Origin: Pseudomonadota bacterium
Lineage (GTDB): Bacteria > Pseudomonadota > Gammaproteobacteria > Burkholderiales > Thiobacillaceae
DNA: 54,250 bases
Direction of reading: 5' to 3'
Assembly: GCA_030691265.1 (NCBI GenBank)
Contig: JAUYET010000056.1
Coordinates: forward strand, 1 to 54,250
In this document: piece after piece, positions 7,032 through 54,250 of the stretch
How the letters are laid out: each line of letters starts with the position of its first letter
How positions within the stretch are numbered: the stretch's first letter is position 1
Notes under the pieces: model-generated
Seen by the model: the letters and a program-made list of their open reading frames with translations, nothing else
What the model was told of the DNA's origin: nothing
Databases searched by the model: none
Made by a program: the position numbers and the translations under genes

Positions 7032-7042
7032 TCGCTGATTCC

Positions 7043-7312: not shown

Positions 7313-7373
7313 GATCCTGAAAACCTCAGTTGACGGATAAATTTATTACGATTCAATGTGTTGCGAGATATCT

Positions 7374-7431
7374 GTAGGTGCGAATTTATTCGCACAGAAG
7401 TCCTTGATTGTGCGAATGAATTCGCACCTAC
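7374..7431. repeat. REPIN-like inverted repeat (GTAGGTGCGAAT family)
   Basis: The arms 7374-7395 and 7410-7431 are reverse complements apart from one position. Each arm is itself a small palindrome of the form TGCGAA...TTCGCA, preceded on its outer side by GTAGG. The 14-base centre is not conserved. The layout is that of a REP doublet. It lies in the 212-base gap between the antitoxin gene and the glycosyltransferase stop. I see no gene in this gap. Confidence 0.8.
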
Positions 7432-7524
7432 GAGCGCTTCAACTGCGGTTTTTAGGATGATTGCTTACTCAAACATGGTTTTATGTGTACACATGATATA
7501 TCGGAAGTGAAGGACATGGCCCCT

Positions 7525-10500
7525 CTATGGTAGCCAGGCGCGCTGCCAGACATCGAGGTTGTCCTCCAGTATCCAGTTGGCATTGATGTAATCGCGCAGG
7601 ACATCGCCGCGCCGGGCCAGTTCGTCGCGCTCGGCCATCGTGCTTCCCACCTGGCTGCGGATCGCATCCACCCAGTCCTTGAAACGGTTGGGTACGCGCG
7701 TAACCGGGTAGTCGCCGCGATAAGGCGTGATGTCGGTGCAAATGACCGGGTAGCCGAGCACGCCGTATTCCAGCAAGCGCAAATGGCTCTTGCCGTGGTT
7801 GAACGGCACGTCTTCCAGCGGCGCCACCGCCAGGTCGAGGTCCAGGCTGGCCAGCTTGGCCGGGTAATCCTCCAGATGGACGCCGGGATGAAATTCCGCG
7901 ACGTAGGGGCGGATGGCGTCCGGGCACATGCCGAAGAACACCCAATCGACGTCCTGCGCGGTGGCCTTCACCACATCGAAGATCACCGCCAGATCGCCGT
8001 CGTGGGTGACGCTGCCAGCCCAGCCGACGCGGGCTTTCTCGCGCCGCAGTCGGGCAGGCTTCAACTCGCCCCAGCGCGCGCGCTCGACATAGTTCTGCAC
8101 CACGACGATGTCATCGGAGTAACCCTGGTACTGCTCGGCCAGGTAGTCGGTGGAAACGATGAAGCGGTCGCACAGCGAGATGCCTTTGCGGAAACGCTTG
8201 TGCAGGTCTTTCTGCTCGACGAAATGCTTCTTGCGTATGCTGCGGATCGGGATGTTGGTGATCAGGTCGTCGATCTCATAGACCCGGAACGCCTTGCTGT
8301 GACGGATGTAGCGCTCGATGAAGTCGAGCTGGTGCGGATCGACCTGGCGTTGCAGCAGGATGACATCGGGTTCCATGCGGAACAGTTCCGGCGGCGTCAG
8401 GTAGTTGCCGGTTTCCCAGCCCATGATGCGGCCGGCGTCGTTGAGCGCGCGCATGGGGGCGATGACGCGGTACTCGCCGCAGCCGGAGCGGTCGGCGGGA
8501 TGCGCCAGAACGCGCGGGCGCGGGCGCCATTCCGGATCCCAGGCCAGCGCCGGGGCGACTTCGATCAGGAAATCGCGTCCGTGCGTCGACAGATTGCGGT
8601 TGAAAGCCGGGTCGAACGCCACGTCGTGCCGCCAGGCGTCGAAGAAACGATTCTGTTCCGCCGCGAAGCGCTCAACCTTGGCCGCATGGGCGCGCACCTC
8701 GACTGCGCCCTTCTGGCTGACCGAGCCCTCATGCAGCACGCTGGCATGCGGCGTGAACACCGTGCGGTACCCCTTCTGGCGCAGGCGCTGGCAGAAATCC
8801 GCGTCGTTATAGGAGACCTGGAAACGCTGCTCGTCGAAACCGCCCAGTTCCAGGTAAAGCGAACGTTTCACCAGCATGCAGGCCGCGGTGACCGCCGAAA
8901 ACTCCTGCGTCAGCTTGAGTCGCCCGAAGTAGCCGTTTTCTTCGGCGGGATGATCGATGAACGGATGGTCGGCCGGGGCGTCGTTCATGCCGAGGATCAC
9001 CCCGGCGTGCTGAATCTTGCCGTCCGGATAGAACAGCTTGGCGCCCACCGCACCGACATCCGCCTGCTGGGCGATGCCGAGCATTTCATCCAGCCAGTCC
9101 TCGTGCAGCACGGCGGTGTCGTTGTTGAGCAGCAGCAGGTAGTCGCCTGTCGCCTCGCGCGCGGCCCGATTGTTCATGGCGGAGAAGTTGAACGGGCCGG
9201 CGCAATCCAGCACCTTGAGGCGCGGCGAGTTGAGCGCCCTCAGTTCGTTCAGGTAGGCCACCGCATCCGGCTCGTCGCTGCCGTTGTCGAGCACCAGAAT
9301 TTCGCAATTGGAATAACCGGTGCCATCGATCAGCGAGGTCAGGCAACGTTTCAGGAATTCCACCTGATTCTTGCTGGGGATGAGGATGGACACCAGCGGG
9401 TTGCCGACGACCGGATAGCGCACATGGAACGTGCCGGGCAGCAGGCCGTCCTCCAGGCTGGCAGCCAAGCCGACACGCGCCAGATGCTGTTCCAGCGCGC
9501 GCCGATGCGTCGCCGCGACTTCCTCGCCGCTACCCCTGCTGTGGCCGCCTTCGGCATAGCGGTGATAGAGCACATCGGCGATGTGGCCGATACCGCTGCG
9601 CCCGACCTTCTCATAGGCGCGCAGGGTGAGATCGAAGGCTTCAACGCCTTCCAGTCCCGGGTCAAAGCCGTTCAGCTCGGCAAGCAGATCGCGTCGGCAC
9701 AGCAACAGACCGCCCACCACGAAGGGCGCGGCGCGCAGCATTTCCAGGTTGAAATCGGTCTTGAAGAAGGGCGCGGAATGCGCGTCCCCGGCATCCACCT
9801 GATCTTCGTCGCTGTAGAGCAGGCGGACTTCCGGGCGCCGCGCAGCCTTATCGGCAAAGGCGAACAGGGCATGCGGCGCCAGCTTGTCGCCGGCTTCCCA
9901 CATCCCTACCCACTCGGCCGGCGTGTCCAGCAGGGCGCGATTGGCGGCAGCCAGTTGCCGCTCCGGCGCGGCCTCGATCCAGGTGATGGCCGCGGCCTCT
10001 TGCAGCGCGGCATGCGCCGGAGCGGCGGCGATGATGCTCAGGCGCCAGTCCGTGTAGAACTGGTGGCCGAGCGACTTGATGTTGTTGGCCAGGCGATCCT
10101 CGCCGCCTTCCGGGACGATGATGGCCAGGTGAAAGCGCGGTCTGGCCGCGAGCGCTTCCATGCGTTCCGCGATCCAGAGCGCATCGCGCTTCAAATACGA
10201 ATGGCCGAGTTGCCAGAGCTGGTAGAAGTCCTGTTTCGCACCGGCTTCGACGCCGGCAGGCAAGGGTTTGGCCAGCAACATGATCTGCAGCGCTTTGAGG
10301 TCTTCGAATTCCTCGTCGCTCACGTCCTTGAGCACGATTTTTTCGGTTTCCACCGTGGTGCAGCCGGGCGGCCGGGTGAGATGCTCGAAGCCGGCCGCGG
10401 CGGTACGCGCGGTGCGACTGACTGCGTAGCCGGTCTCCTGGAACATGCGCAACATTTCATCGCGGGTAAACCAGCGGATATGCGTGATGTCGAGCAGGCC

Positions 10501-12300: not shown

Positions 12301-12308
12301 GGATATGC

Positions 12309-13559
12309 TCAGTCGAAAGCGTGGAAGGTTTTGCTCAGAAGATCGCGCGTCAGGTCGTAGTCCAGGCCACCCATCAGCGGCACTGCCTGATGCTTGAGAA
12401 TGCCGGCAGCTTCCGGCAAGGCTGCCAGGGCGCGCGGTATCTGCGTGACAAGTTGGTCCAGCGCGTCCTGGCGTCGCCATGCCGCCAGGGTGTCGGCATG
12501 GCGCGCGTCGAGAAAGGACGCCAGATCCAGATGGCCGGGGAAGTCGCGCCAGGCGGAAAGCAGGAAATGCAGCAACACCCGGTTGCGCGGGTGGTCCAGC
12601 AGTTGGTTCAAGCGCGCGCGCCAGCCAGCGTCGAAAGCCGGAACCAGCGCGGCGAGGTTGCCGTCGACGCCTTTGTCCAAGGCAGCGTTCAGGCGCTCGT
12701 CACGTTCCAGCCAGGCCTGGTTGCCGGCTTCATCGGGAACATTGTCGAGCGCCACCATCATGCGGCCGGTCACCCGCGTAGTCAGGTGGGCGAAGACGTC
12801 CTGTTCGAGAAACAGGGCGAAGGCCAGCAAGTCCTGGTCCGAGATCAACCAGGATAGGGTGCGGTCATGACGCGTGCCGTCCGCCAGGGTGTTTTTCAGC
12901 CAGAGGTTGATATTGCCTCCCGCGAAAATCCCGGCATAAGGCACGACGGCGACGATACGCTGGCCGAGTCGATTGGCGGTGTCCACCAGGTCGGCAACAC
13001 GAATCCGGCTCAGATAGCCGCTGAAATCCTCGCCCGGATCGTCCGGTCGCGGCGGCAGTCCTTTGGCGGCACAGGCAGCGTCTTCGTGGTCCTGGGAATG
13101 GATGTCGAACAGGATGCGTCCACCCGGGCGAGTCACCCGGCGCCACTCGGCGAGAATTTCCCGCCAGTTGGGGAAGTGCACCAGGACATTGAGCGACATG
13201 ACGGTATCGAATTCGCCGGCGGCAAACTTCAAATCTGCCAGATCGCGTTGCAGCAGCCGGATGGGGGTACGCATCGGGGTATCAGCCGCCAGTTTTCCAG
13301 TCTGCTCCAGCATCGCCTGGGAACTGTCCACGCCAGTCACTTCAAGCCCGGCCTGCGCCAGCGGCAAAGAACCTCGCCCGGTGCCGATGCCGACATCGAG
13401 CACTTTTGGACCCACCGCATAACGCGCGCACAGATCGACCTCGACCTGGTTCTTCAGCCGACTGGTGCCACGGTTCTCCACCATGCGCCGGTGATACCAC
13501 GCCACCATGTCCGGGTTCTTCCAGGCATCAGATTTCCAGTCGATCAGGTCTCGTTCCAT
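12309..13559 (-). CDS. Class I SAM-dependent methyltransferase of the glycosylation cluster
   Basis: The 416-residue protein has a class I methyltransferase domain at about residues 50-170: PKVLDVGIGTGRGSLPLAQA (SAM-binding loop), VTGVDSSQAMLEQ, FDTVMSLNVLVHFPNW and RPGGRILFDIHSQDHE. The remaining 240 residues are an unrecognised, mostly helical C-terminal section. This may bind the acceptor or partner protein. It sits between pseI and the large glycosyltransferase, spaced 24 and 8 bases from them. It therefore probably methylates a nonulosonic acid or another sugar of the flagellin glycan. The substrate is inferred only from position. Confidence 0.8.
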   Translation of the reverse strand: MERDLIDWKSDAWKNPDMVAWYHRRMVENRGTSRLKNQVEVDLCARYAVGPKVLDVGIGTGRGSLPLAQAGLEVTGVDSSQAMLEQTGKLAADTPMRTPIRLLQRDLADLKFAAGEFDTVMSLNVLVHFPNWREILAEWRRVTRPGGRILFDIHSQDHEDAACAAKGLPPRPDDPGEDFSGYLSRIRVADLVDTANRLGQRIVAVVPYAGIFAGGNINLWLKNTLADGTRHDRTLSWLISDQDLLAFALFLEQDVFAHLTTRVTGRMMVALDNVPDEAGNQAWLERDERLNAALDKGVDGNLAALVPAFDAGWRARLNQLLDHPRNRVLLHFLLSAWRDFPGHLDLASFLDARHADTLAAWRRQDALDQLVTQIPRALAALPEAAGILKHQAVPLMGGLDYDLTRDLLSKTFHAFD

Positions 13560-13583
13560 CTTTGTTCCTTGCTTTGTTTCTGG

Positions 13584-14636
13584 TTAACCCAACAAATCCC
13601 AGGACATCGGCGTTCCACGCGGGATATCTCGCCCCACACGCTTGCCGATCAGCGTGTCGTAATGGCCCGGCGCCAGGCCATAACCGGGGCGGATGGCGCG
13701 CAGATTGGCCGGGCTCAAGACATCGCCGGCATGCAGGTCGGCCACCACATAGAGCGAACGGCGGAACACCAGAGAATTCTTCTCCGCTTCGCTGGGGCCA
13801 TAGCACACCTGACCCAATGCAGCCCAGGCACGCTCGCTTTCCAGCCGCAGTTGCGCGAATTCTTCCGGCTCCAGCGAAAACGCCGAGTCCACGCCGCCAT
13901 CGGCACGGCGTAGCGTGAAATGTTTTTCGATCACCGTGGCGCCCAGGGCGACGCTGGCGACGCTGACGCCAACCCCCATCGTGTGGTCGGATAGCCCGAC
14001 CTCGCAGCCGAACAGCGCGCGCAGGTGGGGAAGGGTGAGCAGGTTGGAATTCTCCGGCGTGGCCGGGTAGGTGCTGGTGCATTTGAGCAGCACCAGCTCG
14101 CGGCAGCCGGCCGCACGGGCGGCGCGCACGCTCTCGTCCAGTTCCGCCACCGTGGCCATGCCGGTGGAGATGATCATCGGCTTGCCGGTGGCCGCCACTT
14201 TGCGGATCAAGGGCAGGTCGGTGTTCTCGAACGAGGCGATCTTGTAGGCGGGAACATCCAGTTCTTCCAGAAAATCGACGGCGGTTTCGTCGAATGGCGT
14301 GGAAAACGCCAGCATGCCCAACGCCCGCGCCCGTTCGAAAATCGGCCGGTGCCATTCCCACGGGGTGTAGGCCTGTTGATACAGCGCATGCAGCGATTGC
14401 CCGCCCCACAAGGGATGCTCGACATGGAATTCGCCCGCATCGAGGTCCAGCGTCATGGTGTCGGCGGTATAGGTCTGTATCTTCAGTGCGTGCGCGCCGG
14501 CACGCGCCGCTGCTTCGACAATGGCCAGCGCCCGCTCCAGCGACTGGTTGTGGTTGCCGGACATCTCGGCGATCAGGAAGGGGGGCTGGCCGGGGCCGAT
14601 GACGCGACCGGCAATCCGGATTTCAGTGGCTGCCAT
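13584..14636 (-). CDS. pseI: Pseudaminic acid synthase
   Basis: The 350-residue enzyme condenses 2,4-diacetamido-2,4,6-trideoxy-L-altrose with phosphoenolpyruvate to give pseudaminic acid. It belongs to the NeuB/PseI family. Visible motifs are PPFLIAEMSGNHNQSLERA at the N-terminus, the barrel segments ALKIQTYTADTMTLD and MIISTGMATVAELDE, VGLSDHTMGVG (metal-ligand histidine) and a C-terminal antifreeze/SAF domain (SLYVVADLHAGDVLSPANLR) from about residue 285. The ATG at 14634-14636 starts MAATEIRIAGR; a longer frame would lie entirely inside the upstream pseG-pseH gene. It overlaps that gene by 14 bases. Confidence 0.92.
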   Translation of the reverse strand: MAATEIRIAGRVIGPGQPPFLIAEMSGNHNQSLERALAIVEAAARAGAHALKIQTYTADTMTLDLDAGEFHVEHPLWGGQSLHALYQQAYTPWEWHRPIFERARALGMLAFSTPFDETAVDFLEELDVPAYKIASFENTDLPLIRKVAATGKPMIISTGMATVAELDESVRAARAAGCRELVLLKCTSTYPATPENSNLLTLPHLRALFGCEVGLSDHTMGVGVSVASVALGATVIEKHFTLRRADGGVDSAFSLEPEEFAQLRLESERAWAALGQVCYGPSEAEKNSLVFRRSLYVVADLHAGDVLSPANLRAIRPGYGLAPGHYDTLIGKRVGRDIPRGTPMSWDLLG

Positions 14637-16086
14637 GAACGTCCTTTCTGAAGCGAGATTGGCTGGGGACGAACCCCGCCGCTTGAAAAGCTCGGGAGGA
14701 GGCGAGGTTGCCGGCGCTGACATCGGCCTCCAGCACGCGCACATCGGCACGCTGGCGACGCAGCCAGTTTTCGCCGGCCAGAAGCAGGCGCACGCCCCAC
14801 CCCTGCCCAGCGAGTCCGGGTACCAGGTAGATGGAGACCAGGGTACGACCGGCTGAGATGTCGAAACGCAAGACACCTACCGCCGCGCCACCCGATTCGG
14901 CGATCAACAACTCGCAGTCGGGATCGGCCAATACTTTCGCGAGCCAGCGTTCATGCGTTTCACACGCGATCTCAGCCGGATCGAAGGCGTGACGCCGCGT
15001 GTCCGGGTGATTACGCCAGGCATGCAGCGCCGCGCTATCGCCGACAGTGGCCTGGCGCAGGTCGATCAGTTCGGCCAGCAGATAATTGGCGACCCGCTCC
15101 GCCCCCTTGCCATCGACCAGATTTGATCCCTGGCGCGCCATGTGGATCAGCCAGTGCGGCATCTCCAGGACGCAGGCCAGGGTACGCGCCCAGCGGCCGA
15201 TGTCGACGGACGCGGCCGGGCCGAGATAGCACTGCGCACCGGCTTGCGCAAGCATGACGGATTGCTCGACCTGGTTGTCCGCAGTGGCCACCACCAGCGC
15301 GGGCAATCCCAGGCAACAGCGTTCCCAGGAAGAACCGCCACCGGCACCGAGAAACAGGTCGGCCGCCGCCATCAGCGTTGCCATGTCTTCGACCTGCCGC
15401 TGCAGCACTGCTCCGGGCAGCGCGCGGCAGGCCGCTGCGATGGCGGCATGGTGCGGATTGGCCTGGCCGATCACGACATCCACTTCCAGGTCGTTCCGCC
15501 CGAGCAGTTCGAGGGCGGCCAATGCCTTGAGGGTCTCGCCACCGGCATCTGCACCGCCAAAGAAGACCAGGAGCCGGCGCACCCGGCCAGTGCGGGCCAC
15601 CTGATGCCGACGGGCCGCCGCGAACTGCGGGCGCAGGAGTGCGTATCGGGGGCCGATCAGCAGGCGGCAATCGGCAGGCAGGCGAGCGTCATAACGGCCC
15701 GCTTCCTGCAGGTTCTGGTCGAGCAGGAGATCGCAGTCGTGTGCCCGATCGGCAAGGTCGTCGATCGCCAGAATGTTTTTCACCAGGCTGCGTTGCGCCC
15801 GTTCCCACTCGGCGCCGAGGGCATAGTGGTCGACCACCAGCCAGTCATGCGGCGCCTCTGCAGCGATCACTGCGTAGCTGGCCTCGGCATCTGAAGCCGA
15901 GTCCGGCAGCCAAGCGAGCGCATGCTCGCGCGCAAGAATCAGGCCGCCCAGATGGCCGGGCAGCCGCCGACAGAGGAATTGCGTCTGCGCGCCCTGCGCG
16001 CGCAAGGCGTCGGCCAGGGTCAGGCAGCGCATGACATGGCCGGCGCCAATCTGGACGGAGGCATCGGCGCGAAAGGCGACCTTCAT
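14623..16086 (-). CDS. PseG-PseH fusion: UDP-sugar hydrolase plus N-acetyltransferase
   Basis: The 487-residue protein joins two pathway steps. Residues 1-330 are PseG, which releases UDP from UDP-2,4-diacetamido-trideoxy-altrose. They begin MKVAFRADASVQIGAGHVMR, with the catalytic-type histidine at position 17, and hold FFGGADAGGETLKAL and LGAGGGSSWERCCLGLP. Residues 335-487 are a GNAT acetyltransferase (LIDLRQATVGDSAALHAWRN, VSIYLVPGLAGQGWGVRLL, LASSRAFQAAGF). It matches the PseH type that N-acetylates the 4-amino sugar. In Campylobacter and Helicobacter these are separate genes. The ATG overlaps the pseF stop by four bases, and the 3' end overlaps pseI by 14. The full pathway is covered without a separate pseH. 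Confidence 0.88.
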   Translation of the reverse strand: MKVAFRADASVQIGAGHVMRCLTLADALRAQGAQTQFLCRRLPGHLGGLILAREHALAWLPDSASDAEASYAVIAAEAPHDWLVVDHYALGAEWERAQRSLVKNILAIDDLADRAHDCDLLLDQNLQEAGRYDARLPADCRLLIGPRYALLRPQFAAARRHQVARTGRVRRLLVFFGGADAGGETLKALAALELLGRNDLEVDVVIGQANPHHAAIAAACRALPGAVLQRQVEDMATLMAAADLFLGAGGGSSWERCCLGLPALVVATADNQVEQSVMLAQAGAQCYLGPAASVDIGRWARTLACVLEMPHWLIHMARQGSNLVDGKGAERVANYLLAELIDLRQATVGDSAALHAWRNHPDTRRHAFDPAEIACETHERWLAKVLADPDCELLIAESGGAAVGVLRFDISAGRTLVSIYLVPGLAGQGWGVRLLLAGENWLRRQRADVRVLEADVSAGNLASSRAFQAAGFVPSQSRFRKDVHGSH

Positions 16087-16783
16087 GCGCCGCCCGCCTC
16101 GCTTGTATGCAGTGCGGAAAACATCAACTCTGCACGCAGCCAGTCTTCCTCGCTGTCGATGTCCTGCACCCGGTAACGCGGCAGGATCAGCGGCAGCGAC
16201 GCTGGCGAGAACAGCGTTTCGTCGTTCAGGAACGCGCTCGCCCGCCCCCAGTAGAACTGGCCGGCGTCGTGCCAGGCCGGCGCCAGGTCTTGCGAGCGGG
16301 TGGCGCGATATTCCGGGTACATCGCCTCCACCTCGCCCTGTGCGTTGAGCCGTAGGGCGCGCTGGATGGGAAAGGGAAAACTGGTGACCGAGAACACGAA
16401 GGATTTGCCGGAGGCGAGCAGACGGTCATGGCCCTCGCGCAAGTCGTTTGCCCGAACGAAGGGGGCGGTGGCATACAGGCAGCAGGCGAACTCCACCGGC
16501 ATGCCCTGCGCGTTATGCCAGTGGATAGCCTGCTTGACCACAGCGTTGGTGCCGGTGTGGTCATCAGCCAGTTCACGGGGGCGCAGGAAAGGGATTTCGG
16601 CACCGTGGGCGCGTGCCACTTCAGCAATCTCTGCATCATCGGTGGACACCATGACCCGGTCGAACAAGCCGGTCTCCAACGCGGCCTGAATGGACCAGGC
16701 GATGATCGGGCGGCCGGCGAACAGGCGGATGTTCTTGCGCGGGATACGTTTGCTGCCACCGCGCGCCGGGATCACGCACAGCT

Positions 16784-45069: not shown

Positions 45070-45216
45070 TTTCGCCCCGGCGCGCCGACAACTGCTTTGG
45101 ATGTTGCGGGATTGCCATCTGATTGCCGCGTAGGAGGGCCGCCAGTGGCAAACCGCTTCGCATCGGGTTGTCATCCTCTCGTCATCGTCGCCCGAATAAA
45201 CTGCCCCCCTCCCTGA
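45070..45216. other. Non-coding stretch after the HDOD gene
   Basis: No gene, tRNA or clear regulatory element is visible in these 147 bases, which lead into the two terminators. Confidence 0.5.
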
Positions 45217-45238
45217 CCCGCCGCAAAGGCGGGTTTTT
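45217..45238 (+). terminator. Rho-independent terminator 1 after the mot operon
   Basis: CCCGCC-GCAAA-GGCGGG followed by TTTTT is canonical. It ends the motA-motB-methyltransferase-HDOD run. Confidence 0.88.
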
Positions 45239-45239
45239 A

Positions 45240-45269
45240 GCGGCGCCCAATCGGGCGCCGCTCTTTTTT
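45240..45269 (+). terminator. Rho-independent terminator 2, directly after terminator 1
   Basis: GCGGCGCCC-AATC-GGGCGCCGC followed by TCTTTTTT forms an even stronger hairpin one base after the first terminator's T-run. The pair should insulate the downstream cassette from motility transcription. Confidence 0.9.
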
Positions 45270-45503
45270 GGGAGTGAACAGACAACAAACACAGGGACGC
45301 GATGATCACCACTGGATACGCCCCAGCCCAGAGCCAGCGCGGCTCCACGGGCCTATAACTTTCGGCCAATATTCTTTCGGGGTGAGCCGTTCAGCTCATT
45401 TATTGGGGTGCTCGAACCCACATGAACTGTCATCTACCCCCCTTACGCTGGCAGCACAACCCGGCCAAACGGCCATTCGGGAATGCAACAGGGGAGGTCA
45501 CCC
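45270..45503 (+). promoter_or_regulatory. Probable promoter/leader region of the RHS cassette
   Basis: These 234 bases precede four co-directional genes and follow two terminators, so a promoter must lie here. A TATAAC hexamer (45354-45359) could be a -10 box but has no good -35 partner. A small hairpin TGAGC-CGTTCA-GCTCA lies near 45382-45397. GGGGAGG (45491-45497) is the ribosome site of the first gene. I could not match a known riboswitch. Confidence 0.4.
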
Positions 45504-46802
45504 ATGATCCGCAGCAATGCAATACGCTTCACTCGCCTGACCGTCATCTGCGGTGTCATTGCCGCAGGATTGGCGCTCACTGGCCCGGTTTCAGCGGGTG
45601 TCTATGCCGCCCCTAGCCAGAAAGCGGCTGACTGGCTCGAATCCCAGCAGGATACGAGTGACGGCAGTTGGCGCGATGCCTCCGGGGCCAAGACCTTCCT
45701 GCAAACTACTGAAGCCGTGCTGGCCTTGCATCAGGCCAACCGCCGTCGGGGCGCGTATTACGCGGGTCAAACCTGGATCGAGAACCACGACCCGCAGAAC
45801 CTGGATGCCCGTGCCCGACGGCTGCTGGTGTTGCGCGCCACCCAGTCGAGCGCCCAGCCGGACATCGATGCGCTGCTTACCGCCGTCTCCAGCCCCGCCA
45901 CGGGGCAGTCCGGCTGGGGCCTGGCCAAGCGTTATCGCGCTTCCCCCCTGGATACCGCCCTGGCGCTGGACGCCTTACACACTGTAGGCGCGACATTCGA
46001 CAGTGCGCAGGCTATCGCCTATCTCAAGGCGGCCCAGCTCGACGCAACAGGCGATAAAGGCTGGCCCACGGCGTCTGGCAGCACGACCGATGCCTACACC
46101 ACGGCCCGTGTCATACAAACATTGGCGTCCTATCTGGACTCCGATACCACGCTGGCCACACCGCTGGCCAATGCCGTCGCCACCCTCAAAACCAAGGTTT
46201 CGACTTCCTCCGCGCCGCATGTACGCGCCGCCGCCGCGCTTGCCTACCTGCGCATGGATGCAGCATCAATCGACGCGGTGACTCTGCTCGACTCGCTGGT
46301 CGCACTCCAGCGCACCGATGGCGGCTACGACGCGGGCATCTTCGCCGCCGGCCTCATCGCACAGGCCTTCACCGCCGCCGAGGGCGCGGACGCCGCCTCA
46401 AGCAAGGCGCGGGTCACCCTGCCGGATGACGCGCTCAGGCAAGCGGTCAACACCGCACTGGGACGCGGGGCGATGGATCAGCTCAACCGGGGCGAACTTG
46501 GGCAACTGACTTCCCTGAACATTTCCGGCCTGGGGGTTACCAGCCTGGAAGGCCTGCAATACGCCACCCACCTCACCACGCTCAACGCCGCCAACAACGC
46601 CATCAGCGACACCTCGCCGATTGCCGGGCTGGTCAACCTCGCCAGCACCGATTTCTCCGGCAACCCTTGTCCGGGTTGCACGCAGGTGGCCTCCAGTGAT
46701 GGCGACGTGCCGATTCCCTTGTGGGCATTGGGTGCGCTGGGCGCCGGCCTGGTCGGCGCAATGACACGTGCCGCCGCCCGGCGCGGCGACCACAAAGCAT
46801 AG
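45504..46802 (+). CDS. Exported alpha/alpha-toroid plus leucine-rich-repeat protein with C-terminal membrane anchor
   Basis: The 432-residue protein has a signal peptide (RLTVICGVIAAGLALTGPVS to AGVYA). Residues 33-290 carry helical repeats of the prenyltransferase/terpene-cyclase toroid type (KAADWLESQQDTSDGSWRDA, LDTALALDALHTVGATFD, LDSLVALQRTDGGYDAG). Residues 305-390 are short leucine-rich repeats (LTSLNISGLGVTSLEGLQYA). It ends in VPIPLWALGALGAGLVGAMT then a cluster of arginines, a three-part sorting-like tail. No catalytic motif of a cyclase is visible, so a binding role is more likely. ATG 45504 has GGGGAGG six bases upstream. It is the first gene of the cassette. Confidence 0.72.
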   Translation: MIRSNAIRFTRLTVICGVIAAGLALTGPVSAGVYAAPSQKAADWLESQQDTSDGSWRDASGAKTFLQTTEAVLALHQANRRRGAYYAGQTWIENHDPQNLDARARRLLVLRATQSSAQPDIDALLTAVSSPATGQSGWGLAKRYRASPLDTALALDALHTVGATFDSAQAIAYLKAAQLDATGDKGWPTASGSTTDAYTTARVIQTLASYLDSDTTLATPLANAVATLKTKVSTSSAPHVRAAAALAYLRMDAASIDAVTLLDSLVALQRTDGGYDAGIFAAGLIAQAFTAAEGADAASSKARVTLPDDALRQAVNTALGRGAMDQLNRGELGQLTSLNISGLGVTSLEGLQYATHLTTLNAANNAISDTSPIAGLVNLASTDFSGNPCPGCTQVASSDGDVPIPLWALGALGAGLVGAMTRAAARRGDHKA

Positions 46803-46812
46803 GGAGAACGTC

Positions 46813-47598
46813 ATGCCGCATCGTCTATCGAATCTACTTGTCCTCGTGGCCACCGGGCTTGCCGGCATCGCGCAGCCCAGTTTCGCCGAACAGCCCCCTA
46901 CCGAACCCGCCGTCAAGGCAGCACCGCGCGGCCTCGCCCCCGCGCAGCTTGCCGCCATCCGCGCCATCGGCCGCAACGTGCTGGCGGCCAAGAAGAGCGG
47001 CGCCGACGATCCTGCCGATGCCGAACAACTCGTTCAGCTTCGAGCCAGCCTCGACCGCCTCATCGCCGCCGACCTCAACCCCGGCAACAGAATCCCGATC
47101 ACCCTACTGGGACAGGAAAACGCAGCACAGCGGACGGCCGCGCAGACGGTGGCCAAGCGGCGCGAAGCCGCCCACTCGGATGCGCGGGCGCTTTCAGGGC
47201 AGTTCAAGCAGCGCGCCGAGTTCATGGTCTCGCGCGCTCAGGTCGATCCCCAGGCCGACACAACCTCCGCCGGCTTTGCCATTGGCGCGCAACGGGCCCA
47301 ACTTTATGAGCGCTGGGCGCAGAAACTCGATGAGGCGCTGGCCGATGACAGCCCGTCGCGCGTCGGCAAGCTGGCCGAACTGCGAGACCGCTTGCAAGCC
47401 GCGAAGGGGGGCCTGACGGAAGCGCCACTCAGGCACGACTCGCCCACGTTGCAGGCCACGCCTTCCACCAGCGAAACGCCGATCCGCGCCGTGGAAACGG
47501 CCGAAGCAACGCCGCAACTGGCACCGGCGGCGGTCATGCCTGGCAAGGCCGTCAAGCCACGCAAGCACAAAGCGAAAATCAAAGCGAAAAGCAAATGA
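46813..47598 (+). CDS. Exported helical protein of unknown function
   Basis: The 261-residue protein begins with a signal peptide (MPHRLSNLLVLVATGLAGIA to SFA). Long Ala/Glu/Arg-rich helices (LAAIRAIGRNVLAAKKSGAD, AQTVAKRREAAHSDARALSG, AQLYERWAQKLDEALADD) suggest a coiled coil or helical bundle. The tail is Pro/Thr-rich and ends in a lysine-rich stretch (KPRKHKAKIKAKSK) that could bind DNA, RNA or anionic polymers. I recognise no family. AGGGAGAA precedes the ATG. The gene is ten bases after the toroid gene, and its stop touches an ATG of the next gene. Confidence 0.65.
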   Translation: MPHRLSNLLVLVATGLAGIAQPSFAEQPPTEPAVKAAPRGLAPAQLAAIRAIGRNVLAAKKSGADDPADAEQLVQLRASLDRLIAADLNPGNRIPITLLGQENAAQRTAAQTVAKRREAAHSDARALSGQFKQRAEFMVSRAQVDPQADTTSAGFAIGAQRAQLYERWAQKLDEALADDSPSRVGKLAELRDRLQAAKGGLTEAPLRHDSPTLQATPSTSETPIRAVETAEATPQLAPAAVMPGKAVKPRKHKAKIKAKSK

Positions 47599-47612
47599 GC
47601 GGGAGCCACAAC

Positions 47613-50282
47613 ATGACACCAACGCGTATCCACCTATCCCTCCCGTTACACAGCTTCCTCTCCCAGGCAAGCCGCCGTTTTGCCGCAGCGGTGGTGTCCT
47701 GCCTGGTCGGCCTGACTGCCATTCCCGCAGCCCAGGCCGCCACGCTGGGCGAAACCCCCGAGGTCGTCTACCTAGGCGATGACGCCCAAGCCTTGCGTGA
47801 CAAGGCCACCCAGCTCGGTACGGCGGTCGCCATCTACGAACACCTGCACAACACCATTGAATACTCGGCCTACCACGGCTCGCGTTCAGGCTCGGTCAAC
47901 ACCTTCCTGGGCCAGCGCGGCAGCGATGTGGACATCGCCAGCACCCTGATCGCCATGCTGCGCTCGCAAAACATCCCCATCCCGGCGCGCTACGCCGTCG
48001 GCACGGTACGCCTCCCCGCCGCGCAGCTCACCAACTGGCTGGGCGTCGGCAGCCTGGACGTGGCCGTGCAAATCCTCAAAGACCAGGGCATCCAGGGCGT
48101 CACGCTTGCATCCGACCGCGGCACGGTGGACTTCGAGCATGCCTGGGCCGAAGCCTTCGTGCCCTTCGACCAGTACCGTGGCATCAACACGGCGAGTCCA
48201 GCCGTGGATTGCAGTCAGGCGGCCAGTGCCGCGCGCTGCACCTGGGTAGCCCTGGACGCGAGCTTCAAGCAAAAGACTTACAACGACCTCAACCTCGACC
48301 CCTACAACGCCGTCGCCTTCGACTACACCGGTTACTACAACGCGATCAAAGATGCCGCTACCGATCCGCTCAAGCGCCGCGACAAGAATCCCCTCGCCAT
48401 TCTGGAAGAGCAGATCGGAACCTGGCTGCGCACCAACCACCCCGGCAAGGCGCTGGAGGATGTGGAAGACGCGGGCGAGATCGTCGAGCTGAGCGAAGGA
48501 CTGTTGCCCGCCTCGCTGCCTTATCAGGTGATCGGCAACATCCGCCGTTACGACACGGTCGCGCTGCACGATGCCGCAGTGCCCAGCGCCGAGCCCAAGA
48601 AATGGGGCAAGACGGTGCGTGTCGGATTCAAACTCGTCTCGGGCGGCTTGACGATTCAGGCCGGCGGCACGCCGATCCTGTTGGCCGAGGTCAACACCAA
48701 ACGCCTGACCATGACTACCGAATTCGTGGGAACCGGCAACGTACCGAACATGGTCGTGCGGCTGGGCGGCACGGAAATCTCCCGCCCGATCTCCGGCGGC
48801 GGCACCATCGTCGGCTACACCCCGGCCGTCGGCAACCCCTTCACCATCACCGTATCGATGGATGGCAGACCGGGTGCGACCAGCAGTGAGACCGATCTCA
48901 CCATCAGCGCCGAATACTCGGCCATCATCGGCGGCTACTACCTGGTCGCCACCGGTGGCGAATCCTCCAACTGGTCGCAAGTCCATCGCGCCGCCGATCA
49001 ATTGCTCGCCGCCAACGACCAATACAAGATCGTCTTCAACCCCGGTGAAGCGGTGTGTCAGGCCGACGGCACCAACTGCACGCCCTATGTGGACGCCACC
49101 GGCAACGGCTGGGACGCAAGCGACAAGAAACTGCTGGAAGACAAGCCGTCCCTGGATGCCCTGACCGGCGGCTTGCTCTACTCGGGAGCCACCCAGTATT
49201 ACGCCAAACTGCGCGAGCAGTTCGAGCGTAGCGACCGGCTAATGAAGACCCGGACGCCGGTGATCGGTTTCCTCGGCGTGGTCAGCTCCGTTTACGAGGC
49301 CGAGTACATCGACGGCACCGCCTTCTCGATTCTGCCCGGTGGCCTTTTGATCGACATGAAGGGCATCACCATCGGCGGCGCGTATCGCTCGGCCGAAACG
49401 GCGGTCAACTACTCCAATCGCCAGTTCGAATTCATCGGCCACATCGTCTCTTCTCTGGAACACGAAATCTGGCAGGAGCTGACCGGTTACGACGCGGTGT
49501 CCACCGTGCGCGGCATCCAGATGGCTCTGGCCAATGGCGCGAGCCTGGTCAACGTCAAGCGTGATGCCAGCACCAACACCGTGCCGGCATTTCTGACTTC
49601 AATGGGCTTCGGCGCCTCTGCCCAACCGCCTTTCGCCATCGTCCAGCGCGATATCTATGGCACCCGGCCCACCAGTTGGTCGCACACGACCACGACCGCC
49701 ACCGAGGGCTTCGATGTCCTGAAGAAAAGCCCGACCAGCAGTTCCGATTCGCGCTTGGGCACACTCAGCTATTACAACGACTATTGGAACGGTAACCTGG
49801 GCTGCTTCGACATGAACGAGGATACGTTGAACAGCTTTCGTGCCACCTACGGCGGCTCGGCCACATTCACCGTGGACAATTCCGTGTGTGGTGTGTCCTG
49901 GCCTGCTGGCACGACGATTGACGGTGCAATCGCGATCTTCAGCGCAGGCTACAACAGCTATCGCGGCGGTTCCAACGCAGGAATTTTCAATTACCTCGAT
50001 GTGCTTCAAGGCTTCACCAGCACCGACTTCGCCTACCGTAACAAGAGTCTGGCTGCCAACGCCTACACATCGAGCTTTGTCGCGGGCGTCCGCAATGACC
50101 TCCAGTTGCGCGACGTGAGCCAGTCCTGGGCGGAATACACGCTCCCCTCGACGCTGGTAACTGGCTGCCAATACCGTTTCGAAGTCGATATCCGCAAGGG
50201 GTACACCACCTCCACCGGCAGGCTCGGCTCAATCACTTTCGAGATTGCCAATCGAGGCGTCACAACCAGTGGTTGCCAATAA
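47613..50282 (+). CDS. Exported transglutaminase-fold protein, catalytic cysteine apparently absent
   Basis: The 889-residue protein starts with a signal peptide ending near AIPAAQAA. Residues 60-225 match the transglutaminase-like fold found beside RHS proteins: AIYEHLHNTIEYSAYHGSRS, DIASTLIAMLRSQNIPIPAR, FEHAWAEAFVPF with a candidate histidine at 176, and WVALDASFKQ with a candidate aspartate at 215. The place where papain-like transglutaminases carry cysteine reads RGSDVDIAS. The remaining 650 residues include beta-rich segments (VRVGFKLVSGGLTIQAGGTP) and a C-terminal part with a few cysteines, of unknown fold. ATG 47613 follows GGGAG; an earlier ATG (47595) overlaps the previous stop. It lies directly upstream of the RHS gene. 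Confidence 0.75.
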   Translation: MTPTRIHLSLPLHSFLSQASRRFAAAVVSCLVGLTAIPAAQAATLGETPEVVYLGDDAQALRDKATQLGTAVAIYEHLHNTIEYSAYHGSRSGSVNTFLGQRGSDVDIASTLIAMLRSQNIPIPARYAVGTVRLPAAQLTNWLGVGSLDVAVQILKDQGIQGVTLASDRGTVDFEHAWAEAFVPFDQYRGINTASPAVDCSQAASAARCTWVALDASFKQKTYNDLNLDPYNAVAFDYTGYYNAIKDAATDPLKRRDKNPLAILEEQIGTWLRTNHPGKALEDVEDAGEIVELSEGLLPASLPYQVIGNIRRYDTVALHDAAVPSAEPKKWGKTVRVGFKLVSGGLTIQAGGTPILLAEVNTKRLTMTTEFVGTGNVPNMVVRLGGTEISRPISGGGTIVGYTPAVGNPFTITVSMDGRPGATSSETDLTISAEYSAIIGGYYLVATGGESSNWSQVHRAADQLLAANDQYKIVFNPGEAVCQADGTNCTPYVDATGNGWDASDKKLLEDKPSLDALTGGLLYSGATQYYAKLREQFERSDRLMKTRTPVIGFLGVVSSVYEAEYIDGTAFSILPGGLLIDMKGITIGGAYRSAETAVNYSNRQFEFIGHIVSSLEHEIWQELTGYDAVSTVRGIQMALANGASLVNVKRDASTNTVPAFLTSMGFGASAQPPFAIVQRDIYGTRPTSWSHTTTTATEGFDVLKKSPTSSSDSRLGTLSYYNDYWNGNLGCFDMNEDTLNSFRATYGGSATFTVDNSVCGVSWPAGTTIDGAIAIFSAGYNSYRGGSNAGIFNYLDVLQGFTSTDFAYRNKSLAANAYTSSFVAGVRNDLQLRDVSQSWAEYTLPSTLVTGCQYRFEVDIRKGYTTSTGRLGSITFEIANRGVTTSGCQ

Positions 50283-50321
50283 GCAAGCCACCGACAAAAC
50301 AAAGAACCAAGGACCTGAATC

Positions 50322-53300
50322 ATGCGCCGATCCACTCCATCACCCGCTGTTTCCTCTTTACCGTTCGTGGTGCGCCACCGCCGCCCGCTGGCCGCCCTGA
50401 CCCTGGCGTTCTTCACCCTCACCACCACAGCCCCCGCGCTGGCCGGCGGCTACGTCGACGGCAGCGTGGTGCTGAACCCTGCCAAGGCCATCAACCTCGG
50501 CGCGGTATCGGTGCTGCCCACCTTCAACAACGACCAGTTCAACGACCAATTGCTGGTCGGCGCGGTGCACAACGACCCGGTGCGCACGCCGTCCACCGCC
50601 GACCCCATCTCCACCGTATCCGGCAACAACTACCACGACGAAACCGACTTCGTCATCCGGGGCAGAAACGGCCTCAACACCGTCTTCACCCGCACCTACA
50701 ACAGCGCGCCGAGTTCGACCGGCGTGGATCGTGGCCTCGGCTACGGCTGGACGCACAGCTACCTGATGCAACTGAAGTCGAACGACTTCGGCGACTGCCC
50801 CAACTGCACCAGCGCGCAGAAGTCCGAGAACGGCAATTCAAAAACCAGCTCCATCACCTACACCGACGAACGCGGCGGCGAGCAGGCTTTCCTGGTCAAC
50901 GAATCCACCTACGCCATCACCGCGCCCAAGGGCGTCTACGACACCCTCACGCTCGACAGCCCCGCCGCCGGCCAGCACACGCTGGCATTTCGCAACGGTG
51001 TCAAATACATCTTCGAAGTCCCCAGCGGCACCCTCACAACCACGCCCGCCCTCGTCGCCCGCCTGAAATACATCGACAACGCCTGGGGCGACCGGCTGAC
51101 GCTTGTTTACGACGCCAACGGTCGTCTTTCAACCCTCACCGACAACCTCGGCATCGCCGCCCGCACCGGCATCACCTTCACCTACGACGCCAATGGCCGC
51201 CTGAAAGACGTGTCCGACTGGACAGCGCGCAAGTGGAGCTTTGCCTACGACGCCACCGACAACCTCACCGGCAAGACCAACCCGCTGAACGAAACCCTGA
51301 CCTACGCCTACGACGCCCCCCGGCATCTGCTCACCGCAGTCGTCCAGCCCCTGCAACGCGACGGCCTGCCCGTCAAAACCGTCTTCCAGTACTACCAGAA
51401 TGGCCGCGCCTTCCAGCAGACCAACGGCTTCGACCACGGCGACACCCTCGACTACGACCTCTACCGCAAATCCACCCGCGTCACCGACGCACGCAACGGC
51501 GTGCGCGAATATTTCTACGACGACAACGGCCGCATGACCCAGCTTCGGGAGCCCGACGGCGGCATCCTCCTGTTCGACAACCAGAATGACGCCATCCGGA
51601 GCAAGAAATACGACGCCCTGGGCTACGCCACCAGCTACAGCTATCGCGCGGATAAAGCCTTCACCGGCGCCAGTGATGCCAACGGCAACGTCACCCGCGA
51701 ACAGGACGCACTGGGCCGCACCGTGGACATGACCTACGGCGCGCTCGACCAGATCGCCAGCGTCAAGGACAAGCGCGGCACGGTCAGCACCACCAGCTAC
51801 GCCGCCAGCACCACCGCCACGGCCAGCGTCTGCGGCGACTACCTCAACCGCCCGAAAGAGACCCGCATCAGCGCCTTGGCAGGCGCGGCCAACGTGCTGC
51901 TGTCCAGCCAATGCTGGAACAGCGATGCCACGCTCAGCAGCAGCCGCCAATACCTCGACGCCAGCCGCTACCGCGAAACCCGCCTGACCTACGAGGCGGG
52001 CAGCAACGGCCTCAACGTCAGCCAGCGCCAGAGCGTCGGCCAACCCTCGGGCGCCACGATCACCCAGACCACCACCTACGACAGCCTGGGTCGCAAGAAA
52101 ACCGAAACCCTCAAGCGCCGGACTTCCCCCACCGACGCCACGCTGATCGACCTGACCACCGCCTACGACTACGACGCCCTCGACCGGGTCGTCAAAGCCA
52201 CCGACCCCCTCGGCAACGAAGTCGTCAACAGCTATGACGCCAACGGCCAGCTCTGGAAGGTCACCCACCGCTATAAAAAACCCGACCTCACCTTCGACGA
52301 GCGCGACATCGTCACCCGCACGTTTGACGCCGCCGACCGCGTCAAGACCGAGACCGACGCGATGGGCAACCTCACCACCTACAGCTACGACGCCGCCGGC
52401 AACGTCATCGCGGTGACCGACGCCGAAGGCCACACCGCAAGATTTGAATACGACGCCATGAACCGCAAGACCGCGGTGATCGACGCCACCGGCTATCGCA
52501 CCGAAACCAGGCTCACCCTGCGCGGCGATGTCGTCGCCATCACCAACGCCAACGACGAAACAGTCAAGTTCGAAATCGACGCCCTCGGCCGCAAGACCGC
52601 CGCCATCGACCCGATGGGCTACCGCTCAGAATTCACCTACGACGAAAACGGCAACCTCACCTGCACCATCGACGCCAATGCCCAGGCCGGGCTGCAACCC
52701 AAGAACGCCCAAGGCTGCACGGAAAGCCGGCAATACGACGAACTGGGCCGCCTCACCAAGATCACCGACGCCGACAACGGCGAAACCGTCTTCACCTACG
52801 ACCTCGCGGGCAACCGCCTGAGCGTGAAAGACGCCGAGAACAAGACCTGGAGCTTCGCCTACGACGACCTGGGGCGCTTGGCATCCGAGACCGACCACAG
52901 CGCCAAGACCCTCGCCTACAAGCCCGACGAAGCCGGCAACGTCTATGAAAAGACCAACCGCCTGAACGAAGTCACCCGGTTCAGCTACGACCCCGGCAAC
53001 CGCCTCACCCGCGTCGACTATCTCAAGGACGGCACCGCCGAAACCTACGGCTACGACCCCGCCGGCAACCGCAACGCCGCCGCCAACGCCAACGTCGGCT
53101 ACGCCTTCGACTGGGACCGCCTCAACCGCCTCACCGCCAAGACCGACAGCCGGGGAAGAAGCCTGAGCTTCAGCTACGACCAAGTCGGCAACGTCCTGAC
53201 CAAGACCACCTACCAGGGCAGCACCACGAGCTACACCTACAACGCCGCCAACCGCCTGGTGATGCTGCGCAACCCCGACTACACCCAGGTCAACTACCAG

Positions 53301-54250
53301 ATCGACCCGGCGGGCCGGCTGCTGTCCAGAGTCACCGCCGCCGGCGTGCATGCCAATTACGCATACGACGCCAACGGACAACTCACCCGGCTCACCCAGT
53401 ACGACGCCGCCGACGCGCTGATCGCCGACAGCACCTACACGCGGGATCGGGTCGGCCACATCCTCAGCCAGACCGATCTGGGCGCGCTCACCAGCTACAC
53501 CTATGACGCGCTCTATCGCCTGACCAGCGCCGACTATCCCGGTGCGACCAACGACGAGCTGTTTACCTACGACAAGGTCGGCAACCGCAAGACGTACACG
53601 AAGGGCAGCCTGACGGCGAACGCCAATACGCGGTATTACGGCTACGTCACCGGCAGCAACCGGCTGGCCGACATCCGCATCGGCAGCACCGCCGGCGCCA
53701 TCGAACGCTGCTACAACCACGACGACGAAGGCCGCCTCTACTTCACCACCAACATCGTCAACGGCAGCAGTACCTGCAACAACCTCCAGCAACTGTTCAA
53801 TTGGGACGCCAAAGGCCGCCTGACCGCCCTTTGGCGGCTGGGCGCCGACGGCGCCCTGGAAATCTACGCATACCAATACGACCCGGCCGACCAGCGCATC
53901 GCAAGAAGCGGCCCCCAGGGCAGCCTGGATTACTACCTCGAAGGCGAACACCTGGAATCCGTGTACCAGTCCGGCAACCTGAAGGAAAAGTACTTCCGGG
54001 GTTCGAGCACCGACGAACTGGTGGCGGGCTACCTCACCGACAGCGACGGCAAGATGAAGCCCTTCCTCTTCCACCAGGACAGCCTCACCAGCACCACCCA
54101 GGTGTCCGGGCATAACGGCGGCGTGATTCAGAGCGCGACCTACGGCGCATTCGGGAATTTGCTGGCAACCACCGGATCAAGCCCGAACCGGTTGAAGTAC
54201 ACCGGGCGGGAGGACGATGGCACCGGCTGCTACTACTACCGGGCGCGGTA
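50322..54250 (+). CDS. RHS/YD-repeat exported protein (3' end outside window)
   Basis: The frame is open from ATG 50322 to the window edge, 1309 residues so far. A signal peptide (RRPLAALTLAFFTLTTTAPA, ALAGG) is followed by a DUF6531-like entry domain (HDETDFVIRGRNGLNTVFTR, GLGYGWTHSYLMQL). Dozens of YD repeats then run from about residue 250 (YDANGRLSTLTDNLG, YDALDRVVKATDPLGNE, YDAAGNVIAVTDAEG). The end reads LKYTGREDDGTGCYYYRAR, the conserved closing motif of RHS cores, after which a variable toxin or effector tip normally begins. That tip is not in the window. The repeats form a hollow shell that holds the C-terminal cargo. Export by signal peptide suggests a surface or secreted protein rather than a type VI one. 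Confidence 0.9.
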   Translation, partial: MRRSTPSPAVSSLPFVVRHRRPLAALTLAFFTLTTTAPALAGGYVDGSVVLNPAKAINLGAVSVLPTFNNDQFNDQLLVGAVHNDPVRTPSTADPISTVSGNNYHDETDFVIRGRNGLNTVFTRTYNSAPSSTGVDRGLGYGWTHSYLMQLKSNDFGDCPNCTSAQKSENGNSKTSSITYTDERGGEQAFLVNESTYAITAPKGVYDTLTLDSPAAGQHTLAFRNGVKYIFEVPSGTLTTTPALVARLKYIDNAWGDRLTLVYDANGRLSTLTDNLGIAARTGITFTYDANGRLKDVSDWTARKWSFAYDATDNLTGKTNPLNETLTYAYDAPRHLLTAVVQPLQRDGLPVKTVFQYYQNGRAFQQTNGFDHGDTLDYDLYRKSTRVTDARNGVREYFYDDNGRMTQLREPDGGILLFDNQNDAIRSKKYDALGYATSYSYRADKAFTGASDANGNVTREQDALGRTVDMTYGALDQIASVKDKRGTVSTTSYAASTTATASVCGDYLNRPKETRISALAGAANVLLSSQCWNSDATLSSSRQYLDASRYRETRLTYEAGSNGLNVSQRQSVGQPSGATITQTTTYDSLGRKKTETLKRRTSPTDATLIDLTTAYDYDALDRVVKATDPLGNEVVNSYDANGQLWKVTHRYKKPDLTFDERDIVTRTFDAADRVKTETDAMGNLTTYSYDAAGNVIAVTDAEGHTARFEYDAMNRKTAVIDATGYRTETRLTLRGDVVAITNANDETVKFEIDALGRKTAAIDPMGYRSEFTYDENGNLTCTIDANAQAGLQPKNAQGCTESRQYDELGRLTKITDADNGETVFTYDLAGNRLSVKDAENKTWSFAYDDLGRLASETDHSAKTLAYKPDEAGNVYEKTNRLNEVTRFSYDPGNRLTRVDYLKDGTAETYGYDPAGNRNAAANANVGYAFDWDRLNRLTAKTDSRGRSLSFSYDQVGNVLTKTTYQGSTTSYTYNAANRLVMLRNPDYTQVNYQIDPAGRLLSRVTAAGVHANYAYDANGQLTRLTQYDAADALIADSTYTRDRVGHILSQTDLGALTSYTYDALYRLTSADYPGATNDELFTYDKVGNRKTYTKGSLTANANTRYYGYVTGSNRLADIRIGSTAGAIERCYNHDDEGRLYFTTNIVNGSSTCNNLQQLFNWDAKGRLTALWRLGADGALEIYAYQYDPADQRIARSGPQGSLDYYLEGEHLESVYQSGNLKEKYFRGSSTDELVAGYLTDSDGKMKPFLFHQDSLTSTTQVSGHNGGVIQSATYGAFGNLLATTGSSPNRLKYTGREDDGTGCYYYRAR

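Follow-up and report, generated by a model that had tools for sequence, protein, structure and literature searches.

Toxins in which inactive transglutaminase domains are followed by RHS repeats were described by Zhang et al. 2012 (PMC3482391), where anchoring by peptide binding was suggested. We analyzed a group of four genes, numbered 1 to 4, that closes a 54,250-nucleotide stretch of DNA (the window) from a Thiobacillaceae metagenome-assembled genome (MAG); the window is contig C24 of this genome, which comprises 2.02 Mb in 117 contigs and is 58% complete. The locus resembles the toxins of Zhang et al. in its signal peptides, its transglutaminase fold with a lost triad residue, its RHS repeats and, among relatives, its variable tips. 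However, transglutaminase and RHS parts occupy one chain in those toxins and separate genes in the window. The system also adds a partner with a toroid and leucine-rich repeats (LRR), a constant tail behind the tip and, in relatives, exosortase genes close by; in the available part of the PMC3482391 text, the terms 'sortase', 'CTERM', 'squalene' and 'exosortase' do not occur. A preliminary description, made from the window's letters alone, had called the cassette a candidate undescribed one. This does not hold for the inactive-transglutaminase/RHS unit, which is known (PMC3482391), whereas for the exosortase-linked toroid, the split chain and the constant tail we found no description in the literature searched, which covered few subscription papers.

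Three other described systems are similar in part. Rhs effectors of the type VI secretion system such as Tse15 (PMC11461821) share the RHS cage, a separate N-terminal helical piece and the self-cleaving release of a variable toxin. In contrast to these, the window's proteins have Sec-type starts, their N-terminal pieces are separate genes instead of products of autocleavage, the release motif of relatives deviates from the published pattern, and a constant tail goes without mention in the accessible portion of that paper. Searches of the four window proteins with Pfam at E 1 gave no match to PAAR or VgrG, nor to the SpvB/TcdB-type partner domains of Tc/ABC toxins. With exosortase/IPTL-CTERM sorting (TIGR04174, TIGR04178, XrtM, XrtH) the locus has in common that some relatives carry gene 1 tails recognized by the IPTL-CTERM model and that the five neighboring exosortase open reading frames (ORFs) tested pass signature TIGR04178; however, these ORFs remain below the cut-offs of the named XrtM and XrtH families, and the gene 1 tails tested from the window's clade reach no model. 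Finally, the toroid of gene 1 is related in sequence to those of squalene-hopene cyclases and alpha-2-macroglobulin, but the DxDD and CxEQ motifs of these proteins are mostly missing from gene 1 proteins of the LRR-bearing clade.

Our preferred reading is that gene 1 encodes a scaffold, anchored by an exosortase, that holds an RHS polymorphic toxin whose parts are encoded separately by genes 2, 3 and 4. We regard the chances of this reading being right or wrong as evenly balanced, and no better than that because the CTERM models miss the gene 1 tails of the window's clade and because the toxin-release motif is found only as a variant. The locus offers a candidate anchor, the toroid together with an exosortase, by which Gram-negative bacteria could keep Sec-exported RHS toxins on their surface and present them to neighbors. 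If true, the reading would link exosortase sorting with bacterial antagonism, a connection for which we found no paper in the literature searched. The part of PMC4960237 that was accessible, a survey of outer-membrane proteins, names both exosortase and Rhs but treats them apart.

The four genes are co-directional and spaced by 10, 14 and 39 bases (Table 1), as first described. Each had also been assigned a signal peptide. By a crude rule of our own, signal-peptide-like starts are present in 37 of 40 proteins from ten split loci; the rule failed for gene 4 of locus L039, gene 2 of contig C108 and gene 3 of the window itself, which had been entered four codons inside.

It had further been proposed that the genes work as a set, and their neighborhood among relatives supports that they belong together. 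Relatives were collected by scanning named genomes with a gene 3 alignment and one peptide pattern, and the counts below refer to the best 80 of 159 relatives among 175 stretches; near-duplicates among these 80 loci are L059/L060/L080/L088 and L061/L100. A gene 1-like gene (blastp, E 1e-4; three matches are weaker than 1e-6) lies at most 4 kb from gene 3 in 67 loci, always on the same strand, and at most 1 kb from it in 52. Homologues are therefore neighbors, and the rare neighborhood that would have spoken against a functional set was not seen. Several of the 13 loci lacking gene 1 are cut near gene 3, and three (L058, L068, L112) hold at least 8 kb on both sides. RHS repeats occur in 46 loci, 43 of them with gene 1. 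A gene 1 profile gave one to eight matches in each of 18 cassette genomes, tail-only matches included, and the cassette copy is the sole match in six (G011, G050, G426, G427, G439, G444), so that by our own arithmetic a chance neighborhood of genes 1 and 3 is negligible. In a smaller test with 60 relatives plus the window's own genome, gene 3 was found in 5 of 61. The own genome carries genes 1, 2 and 3 followed by the start of an RHS gene on two more contigs, C85 and C108, where contig ends again cut the RHS genes; on C108 the RHS start amounts to 72 codons, judged by eye. Together, these same-order paralogues and the linkage of gene 1 rule out a chance operon.

Genes 2, 3 and 4 appear to correspond to a single chain. 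The transglutaminase fold and the RHS repeats form one ORF in 38 of the 46 RHS loci, about 2200 to 2700 amino acids long where complete and mostly with 220 to 310 residues in front; seven RHS loci have separate genes 3 and 4, and in L061 the chain is fragmented. A single ORF of 2492 amino acids in L033, directly after a gene 1-like gene, comprises a long front stretch, the transglutaminase, the RHS part and the tip. Gene 2 yields nothing in Pfam below E 0.88. A profile of 11 gene 2 sequences matches the front domain of the 29 RHS-bearing fused relatives with E 7e-6 over 145 columns (probability 84), against 0.38 for a reversed control and 0.71 or more for eight shuffles. The same profile gives 8e-5 with all 64 front domains and a weak 0.014 with the 35 RHS-free ones, and an earlier comparison of 3 and 4 sequences was not significant (E 0.13). 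Exported ORFs resembling gene 2 stand before the fused genes of L042, L045, L146 and L147. As a set, the four distant ORFs match the gene 2 profile at 6e-4 and the fused domain at 0.38, with none found by hmmsearch at E 1; enlarged by them, the gene 2 profile matches the fused domain at 6e-5. Since most RHS loci fuse genes 3 and 4, and the front domain of the fused chains is similar to gene 2, the window would encode one toxin chain in three exported parts. Named isolates with the split form are Aquabacterium commune DSM 11901 and Denitromonas iodatirespirans. Genes 2, 3 and 4 are fully split in L035, L037-L041, L044, L129 and the three own-genome copies; L036 combines a separate gene 2 with fused genes 3 and 4, as does L147 with its gene 2-like ORF. 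From the accessible account of Tse15 (PMC11461821), we infer by analogy that genes 2 and 3 may supply an N-terminal portion that has become detached from the RHS cage, in a role comparable to that of the clade domain. This natural split makes the toxin subunits separately testable. The lysine-rich end noted earlier for gene 2 is visible by eye in the three own-genome copies and absent from the other 8 of the 11 gene 2 sequences.

That gene 3 has a transglutaminase fold is confirmed by its Transglut_core match. The suggestion that it processes the RHS cargo had to be abandoned. We assigned the column of the catalytic cysteine by matching G-x-C-x-D-x-A, which we take to be the pattern around that residue in transglutaminases. 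None of 94 rows has cysteine in this column (Ala 45, Asp 30, Pro 11, Ser 5, Glu 2, Asn 1; two further rows are gapped), and histidine is kept in 92 and aspartate in 95 of 96 rows. The Cys-His-Asp triad is incomplete throughout, so gene 3 cannot process cargo as a transglutaminase, and we rejected this role.

The product of gene 4 is an RHS/YD-repeat shell, as had been recognized, with 18 RHS_repeat stretches (Pfam, 7e-92) behind a DUF6531 start; it matches the solved Rhs chains 7q97 (4e-34) and Tse15 (6e-27). The kinds of tip found on related shells favor a toxin. Contig C79 of the own genome holds the 3' end of an RHS gene, with a VanY-type tip (7e-9, over the cut-off) followed by a protein of 148 amino acids with a signal-like start. 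Among ten further tips compared with Pfam, two exceed the curated cut-off (L039, Tox-REase-7, 9e-13; L130, VanY, 2e-9) and five fall below it with families of a plausible toxin kind: L037 (Tlde1, 0.009), L127 (SLT, 0.015), L129 (GIY-YIG, 0.05), L130b (M91, 0.09) and L038 (deaminase, 0.17, the second-best match of this tip). In L130, three tips stand in tandem, and behind each of them comes a small ORF that begins in a signal-like way; small ORFs also lie directly after the tips of C79 and L037-L040. These small genes are immunity-like and may protect the producer. On C79, behind the tip and its small gene, there is also a transposase-like ORF, recognized by eye (L010, 2437-3381, minus strand).

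After the variable tip, chains of the window's clade end in a constant 21-residue tail, GGFL(I/L)YPNKxNxNxxxSVYxK. We compared 19 tailed sequences that were picked by the tail itself, some from the same locus; one did not fit the parsing pattern, and a short core led us to drop three more. Over the remaining 15 tips, mean identity is 63% in the last 140 core residues, 22% in the tip and 72% in the tail. The tail is present in 10 loci of one gene 3 clade and in C79; the RHS genes of other clade members (C24, C85, C108, L035, L036, L043) are cut or broken. Outside the clade, none of 19 RHS ORFs has the tail, at least one of these ORFs (L086) being broken. Of 399 genomes of the order, four match the tail strongly, the own genome being one of them, and three match it weakly; of 369 genomes of the class, three match, again with the own genome. 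A looser variant of the RHS release motif is found in 16 of the 19 tailed sequences; L147 has it by eye, and L130b and L130c hold its end only. Since the tail follows this variant, it should stay attached to the toxin on release. Being short, and constant where the toxins vary, such a tag could be deleted or moved to a harmless reporter.

The same clade is marked by the LRR segment of gene 1 and by a separate gene 2 or gene 2-like ORF. Because LRR, gene 2 and most tails coincide in this way, the LRR or gene 2 would be the first candidates for binding the tail, although shared descent alone gives the same pattern. A more specific proposal, which we hold possible but rather doubtful, is an exosortase-anchored platform, built from a toroid with LRR or an Ig-like protein and from the inactive transglutaminase as peptide-binder, that recruits RHS toxins by their constant C-terminal tag. 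If so, the tag would travel with the toxin after self-cleavage, and different toxin modules ending in the tag would share one platform.

Evidence for the anchor comes from gene 1 and from exosortase genes near relatives. An alignment of 26 gene 1 sequences matches squalene-hopene cyclases at 1e-26 and alpha-2-macroglobulin at 2e-6, and with the LRR_4 match this upholds the original assignment of a toroid with LRR. Of the three own-genome copies, only that on C85 exceeds the cut-off of SQHop_cyclase_C in Pfam (8e-7); C108 gives 0.045 and the window no match. The window's gene 1 has neither motif; among LRR-clade gene 1 proteins DxDD is absent from 13 of 14, and so is the CxEQ thioester motif. 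LRR models match 15 of 77 gene 1-like proteins, plus L147, and all 16 loci fall in one gene 3 clade. Counting the exosortase of L052 itself, an ORF related to it occurs in 17 of the 46 RHS loci and in 1 of the 34 others, always on the strand of gene 3. Twelve of these ORFs lie upstream of gene 1, three between genes 1 and 3 (L086, L087, L102) and three downstream of the RHS gene (L052, L096, L103); many of the upstream ones are followed, before gene 1, by an ORF of about 200 amino acids, for which four tested examples gave no family match. At the genome level, 25 of 28 cassette genomes have exosortases, as compared with 62 of 150 genomes of the order. In view of this background, presence in the genome is modest evidence, and nearness to the cassette is the stronger point. 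Two MAGs, the own one and another of 1.4 Mb, and a Bacillus account for the three cassette genomes without exosortase. A related arrangement without a toroid is found on a plasmid of Methylomonas koyamae, where 12 kb include a small IPTL-CTERM-like protein with one YD repeat (20.2 bits, cut-off 20.8), a transglutaminase-RHS protein, a tailed RHS protein, an annotated xrtM and a further ORF; the cluster adjoins conjugation genes. Tailed RHS tips with an exosortase were observed on the Methylomonas plasmids L148 (pLM6, 4410-16156), with conjugation genes beside them, and L149 (12093-18116).

The preferred reading, with gene 1 as anchored scaffold, can be put as a sequence of steps. All four proteins would cross the inner membrane via Sec, judging from their signal-peptide-like starts. 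An exosortase would then process the tail of gene 1, leaving its product as a surface scaffold; this step is suggested by the C-terminal stretch and by exosortases near relatives. The products of genes 2 and 3 may rejoin gene 4 as its N-terminal domains, as the fused relatives imply, and the groove of gene 3 may bind a peptide instead of cutting it. The RHS cage would enclose the variable toxin, and self-cleavage, for which relatives carry the motif variant, would free it. The freed piece would consist of toxin plus constant tail, the latter perhaps being a tag for docking, retention or export. Targets would presumably be neighboring bacteria, with the small gene after the tip protecting the producer.

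A number of observations weigh against this reading. The first concern sorting. The window's gene 1 matches no CTERM model at E 1. Among eight gene 1 relatives, none is listed for L040, L129, L078, L059 and L047, of which L040 and L129 belong to the window's clade; TIGR04174 gives scores for three (L086, 23.1 bits with a cut-off of 20.5; L031, 20.2; L048, 13.7), L086 and L031 lying outside the clade, and the PEP-CTERM match of gene 1 on C85 (14.8) is below its cut-off of 20.7. The sorting signal in the window's clade therefore rests on likeness by eye. The preliminary description's anchored scaffold agrees with the C-terminal stretch and with the exosortases of relatives, although recognition by CTERM models is confined to relatives from outside this clade. 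The own genome, of which 58% is present, yielded no exosortase. Its contig C28 encodes two adjacent proteins, subtilase-like by eye (L150, 8092-10332 and 10352-12739), that have a VPLP-W tail like that of gene 1 and are 43-50% identical to a protein of L040 that bears such a tail and is encoded upstream of the exosortase there; this suggests that the missing part of the genome may encode an exosortase. In L059, L060, L080 and L088, dockerin-like repeats, seen by eye, replace the IPTL-type tail at the C-terminus of gene 1.

A second difficulty is that 34 of the 80 loci show no RHS repeats in the available stretch, 7 of these being cut by a contig end in or just after gene 3. Genes 1 and 3 must therefore also do something else. 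Gene 1 is present in 24 of these 34 loci, which include Geobacter, Nitrospirota and Bacillota, so the anchor pair is wider than the toxin, and within the broader partnership of genes 1 and 3 the four-gene form makes up a single clade. Such loci agree with the idea that the system is a surface or biofilm-matrix complex and no weapon. Peptide or polysaccharide would then be bound by the anchored toroid and the inactive transglutaminase, with the RHS protein serving as a large adhesin. The usual connection of exosortase systems with exopolysaccharide fits this idea as well. It is also favored by the tips of L040, L041 and L044, three of the ten compared with Pfam, for which nothing or only implausible matches were found and which count against a toxin. 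Against the idea stand the VanY and Tox-REase-7 tips over the cut-off, the arrangement of tips in tandem, the immunity-like genes and the variant release motif, and we think it unlikely. In L054 (9371-12583), an RHS-free relative of gene 3 ends in a CHAP/NlpC-P60-like stretch, below the cut-off, as if another effector replaced the shell.

Third, the toxin end of the cassette is seen in relatives and not in the window. The preliminary description had expected a variable tip and an immunity gene past position 54,250; relatives have varying tips with immunity-like genes behind them, but the window ends with its contig, so that the assembly cuts gene 4 and the window's own tip lies beyond, as would its immunity gene. 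The RHS release motif as published in the accessible part of PMC11461821 is exact in none of the 19 tailed sequences, and L045 has an LRR-bearing gene 1 and a complete RHS gene without the tail. Two genomes, each 99% complete, have strong tail matches and no gene 3, and we accordingly rejected the tail as a mark of gene 3; one of them has a truncated exosortase-like start (29% identity, 4e-7) before a tailed RHS remnant. Tails apart from gene 3 would be expected if the toxin were simply released, with the products of genes 2 and 3 acting as periplasmic chaperones, the tail as export signal for an outer-membrane secretion machine, and gene 1 encoding merely a co-transcribed surface protein. The Sec-type starts on most pieces are consistent with this too, as is the position of the tail behind the motif variant, where it should stay with the toxin. 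Against it, gene 1 often accompanies gene 3 even where no RHS gene is seen, and exosortase genes are close to cassettes; we consider this explanation improbable.

The occurrence of LRR and most tails in one clade allows yet another interpretation of gene 1, as a recognition or immunity-like factor whose LRR binds a ligand and shields the producer, instead of a scaffold. LRR proteins are listed among immunity proteins in the part of PMC3482391 consulted. However, gene 1 is constant and the tips vary, and in the window's clade gene 1 is usually upstream of genes 2 and 3 and not after the tip (exceptions are L042 and L045), which leaves this interpretation with very little credence.

Table 1. Features of the cassette and its leader, in positions of the window
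Feature	Position	Strand	Remarks
Leader	45147..45503	+	promoter-like stretch, two hairpins, then about 190-230 bases to gene 1; conserved before three cassettes
Two-hairpin element, ncS54-like small RNA	45207..45269	+	RF02871, 34.6 bits; gathering score 43
Gene 1	45504..46802	+	exported alpha/alpha toroid, LRR segment, C-terminal sorting-type tail; further in-frame ATG at 45483
LRR segment of gene 1	46410..46691	+	LRR_4, 2e-6 (Pfam)
C-terminal tail of gene 1	46701..46799	+	GDVPIPLWALGALGAGLVGAMTR..., IPTL-CTERM-like by eye
Gene 2	46813..47598	+	exported helical protein; corresponds to the front domain of the fused chains in relatives
Gene 3	47613..50282	+	exported transglutaminase fold without catalytic Cys; further in-frame ATG at 47595, overlapping the gene 2 stop
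Transglutaminase-fold core of gene 3	47796..48170	+	Transglut_core, 1.2e-10 (residues 63-187, translation from 47610)
Gene 4	50322..54250	+	exported RHS/YD-repeat shell; 3' end cut by contig end
DUF6531, start of RHS shell	50601..50786	+	2e-14 (Pfam)

The three copies in the own genome are divergent. The window's proteins are 45 and 49% (gene 1), 30 and 34% (gene 2) and 48 and 46% (gene 3) identical to those of the other two cassettes. In a tree of 96 transglutaminase cores from 90 loci, the three copies belong to one clade of 17 rows (support 100/100) and are not adjacent; C108 pairs with Methyloversatilis (100/94), and the placement of C85 is weakly supported (91/37). As the copies are not adjacent, they look old or separately acquired. 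We considered C79 as the continuation of the window's RHS gene and ruled this out; their overlap is 75% identical over about 985 bases, with 276 of 300 at its end, so that C79 must be the 3' end of another RHS gene. Probably, the shared RHS core broke the assembly. Two MAG loci of the tree, L100 ('Stygiobacter') and L088 ('Rhizobium'), are near-copies of Rhodocyclaceae and Thiobacillus loci and are probable binning errors.

The DNA before the cassettes is far better conserved than the genes. About 400 bases preceding the three own-genome cassettes are 81-92% identical, gaps left out, as compared with 45-57% in coding DNA, and similarity drops to 42-62% across the first 60 bases of gene 1; the corresponding leaders lie at 7224-7701 of L011 and 7571-7950 of L012. 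This constancy could stem from selection acting on a regulator that the copies share, or else from gene conversion. Two strong terminators had been described at this site. The terminator scanner calls one, at 45239-45262 (five calls in the region, with a shuffle mean of 10.3), and the second hairpin is seen by eye and in the Rfam alignment of a copy. The element resembles ncS54, a Burkholderia small RNA that, according to the accessible part of PMC5688073, is listed as up 3.1-fold in biofilm in B. cenocepacia. The other two cassettes have RF02871 matches of 33.1 and 33.0 bits, so all three copies are under the gathering score, and Rfam at gathering scores gave no match in the leader. A structured RNA leader after the hairpins is unsupported (fold z-score -0.20). 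Just upstream of the hairpins, all three copies keep a direct repeat, TTGTCATCCTC / TCGTCATCGTC (window 45168-45189, 11-base spacing), which resembles what we take to be the consensus of a Pho box.

Upstream of the cassette there are an HDOD-domain gene and a MotB/OmpA gene, both apparently unrelated to it. PADLOC and PHROGs gave no match. As to carriage by mobile elements, tblastn with gene 3 found no match in phages, viral_contigs gave one locus and plasmids two weak gene 3 matches, and queries with gene 1 gave only LRR-type matches, on Gram-positive or Mollicutes records.

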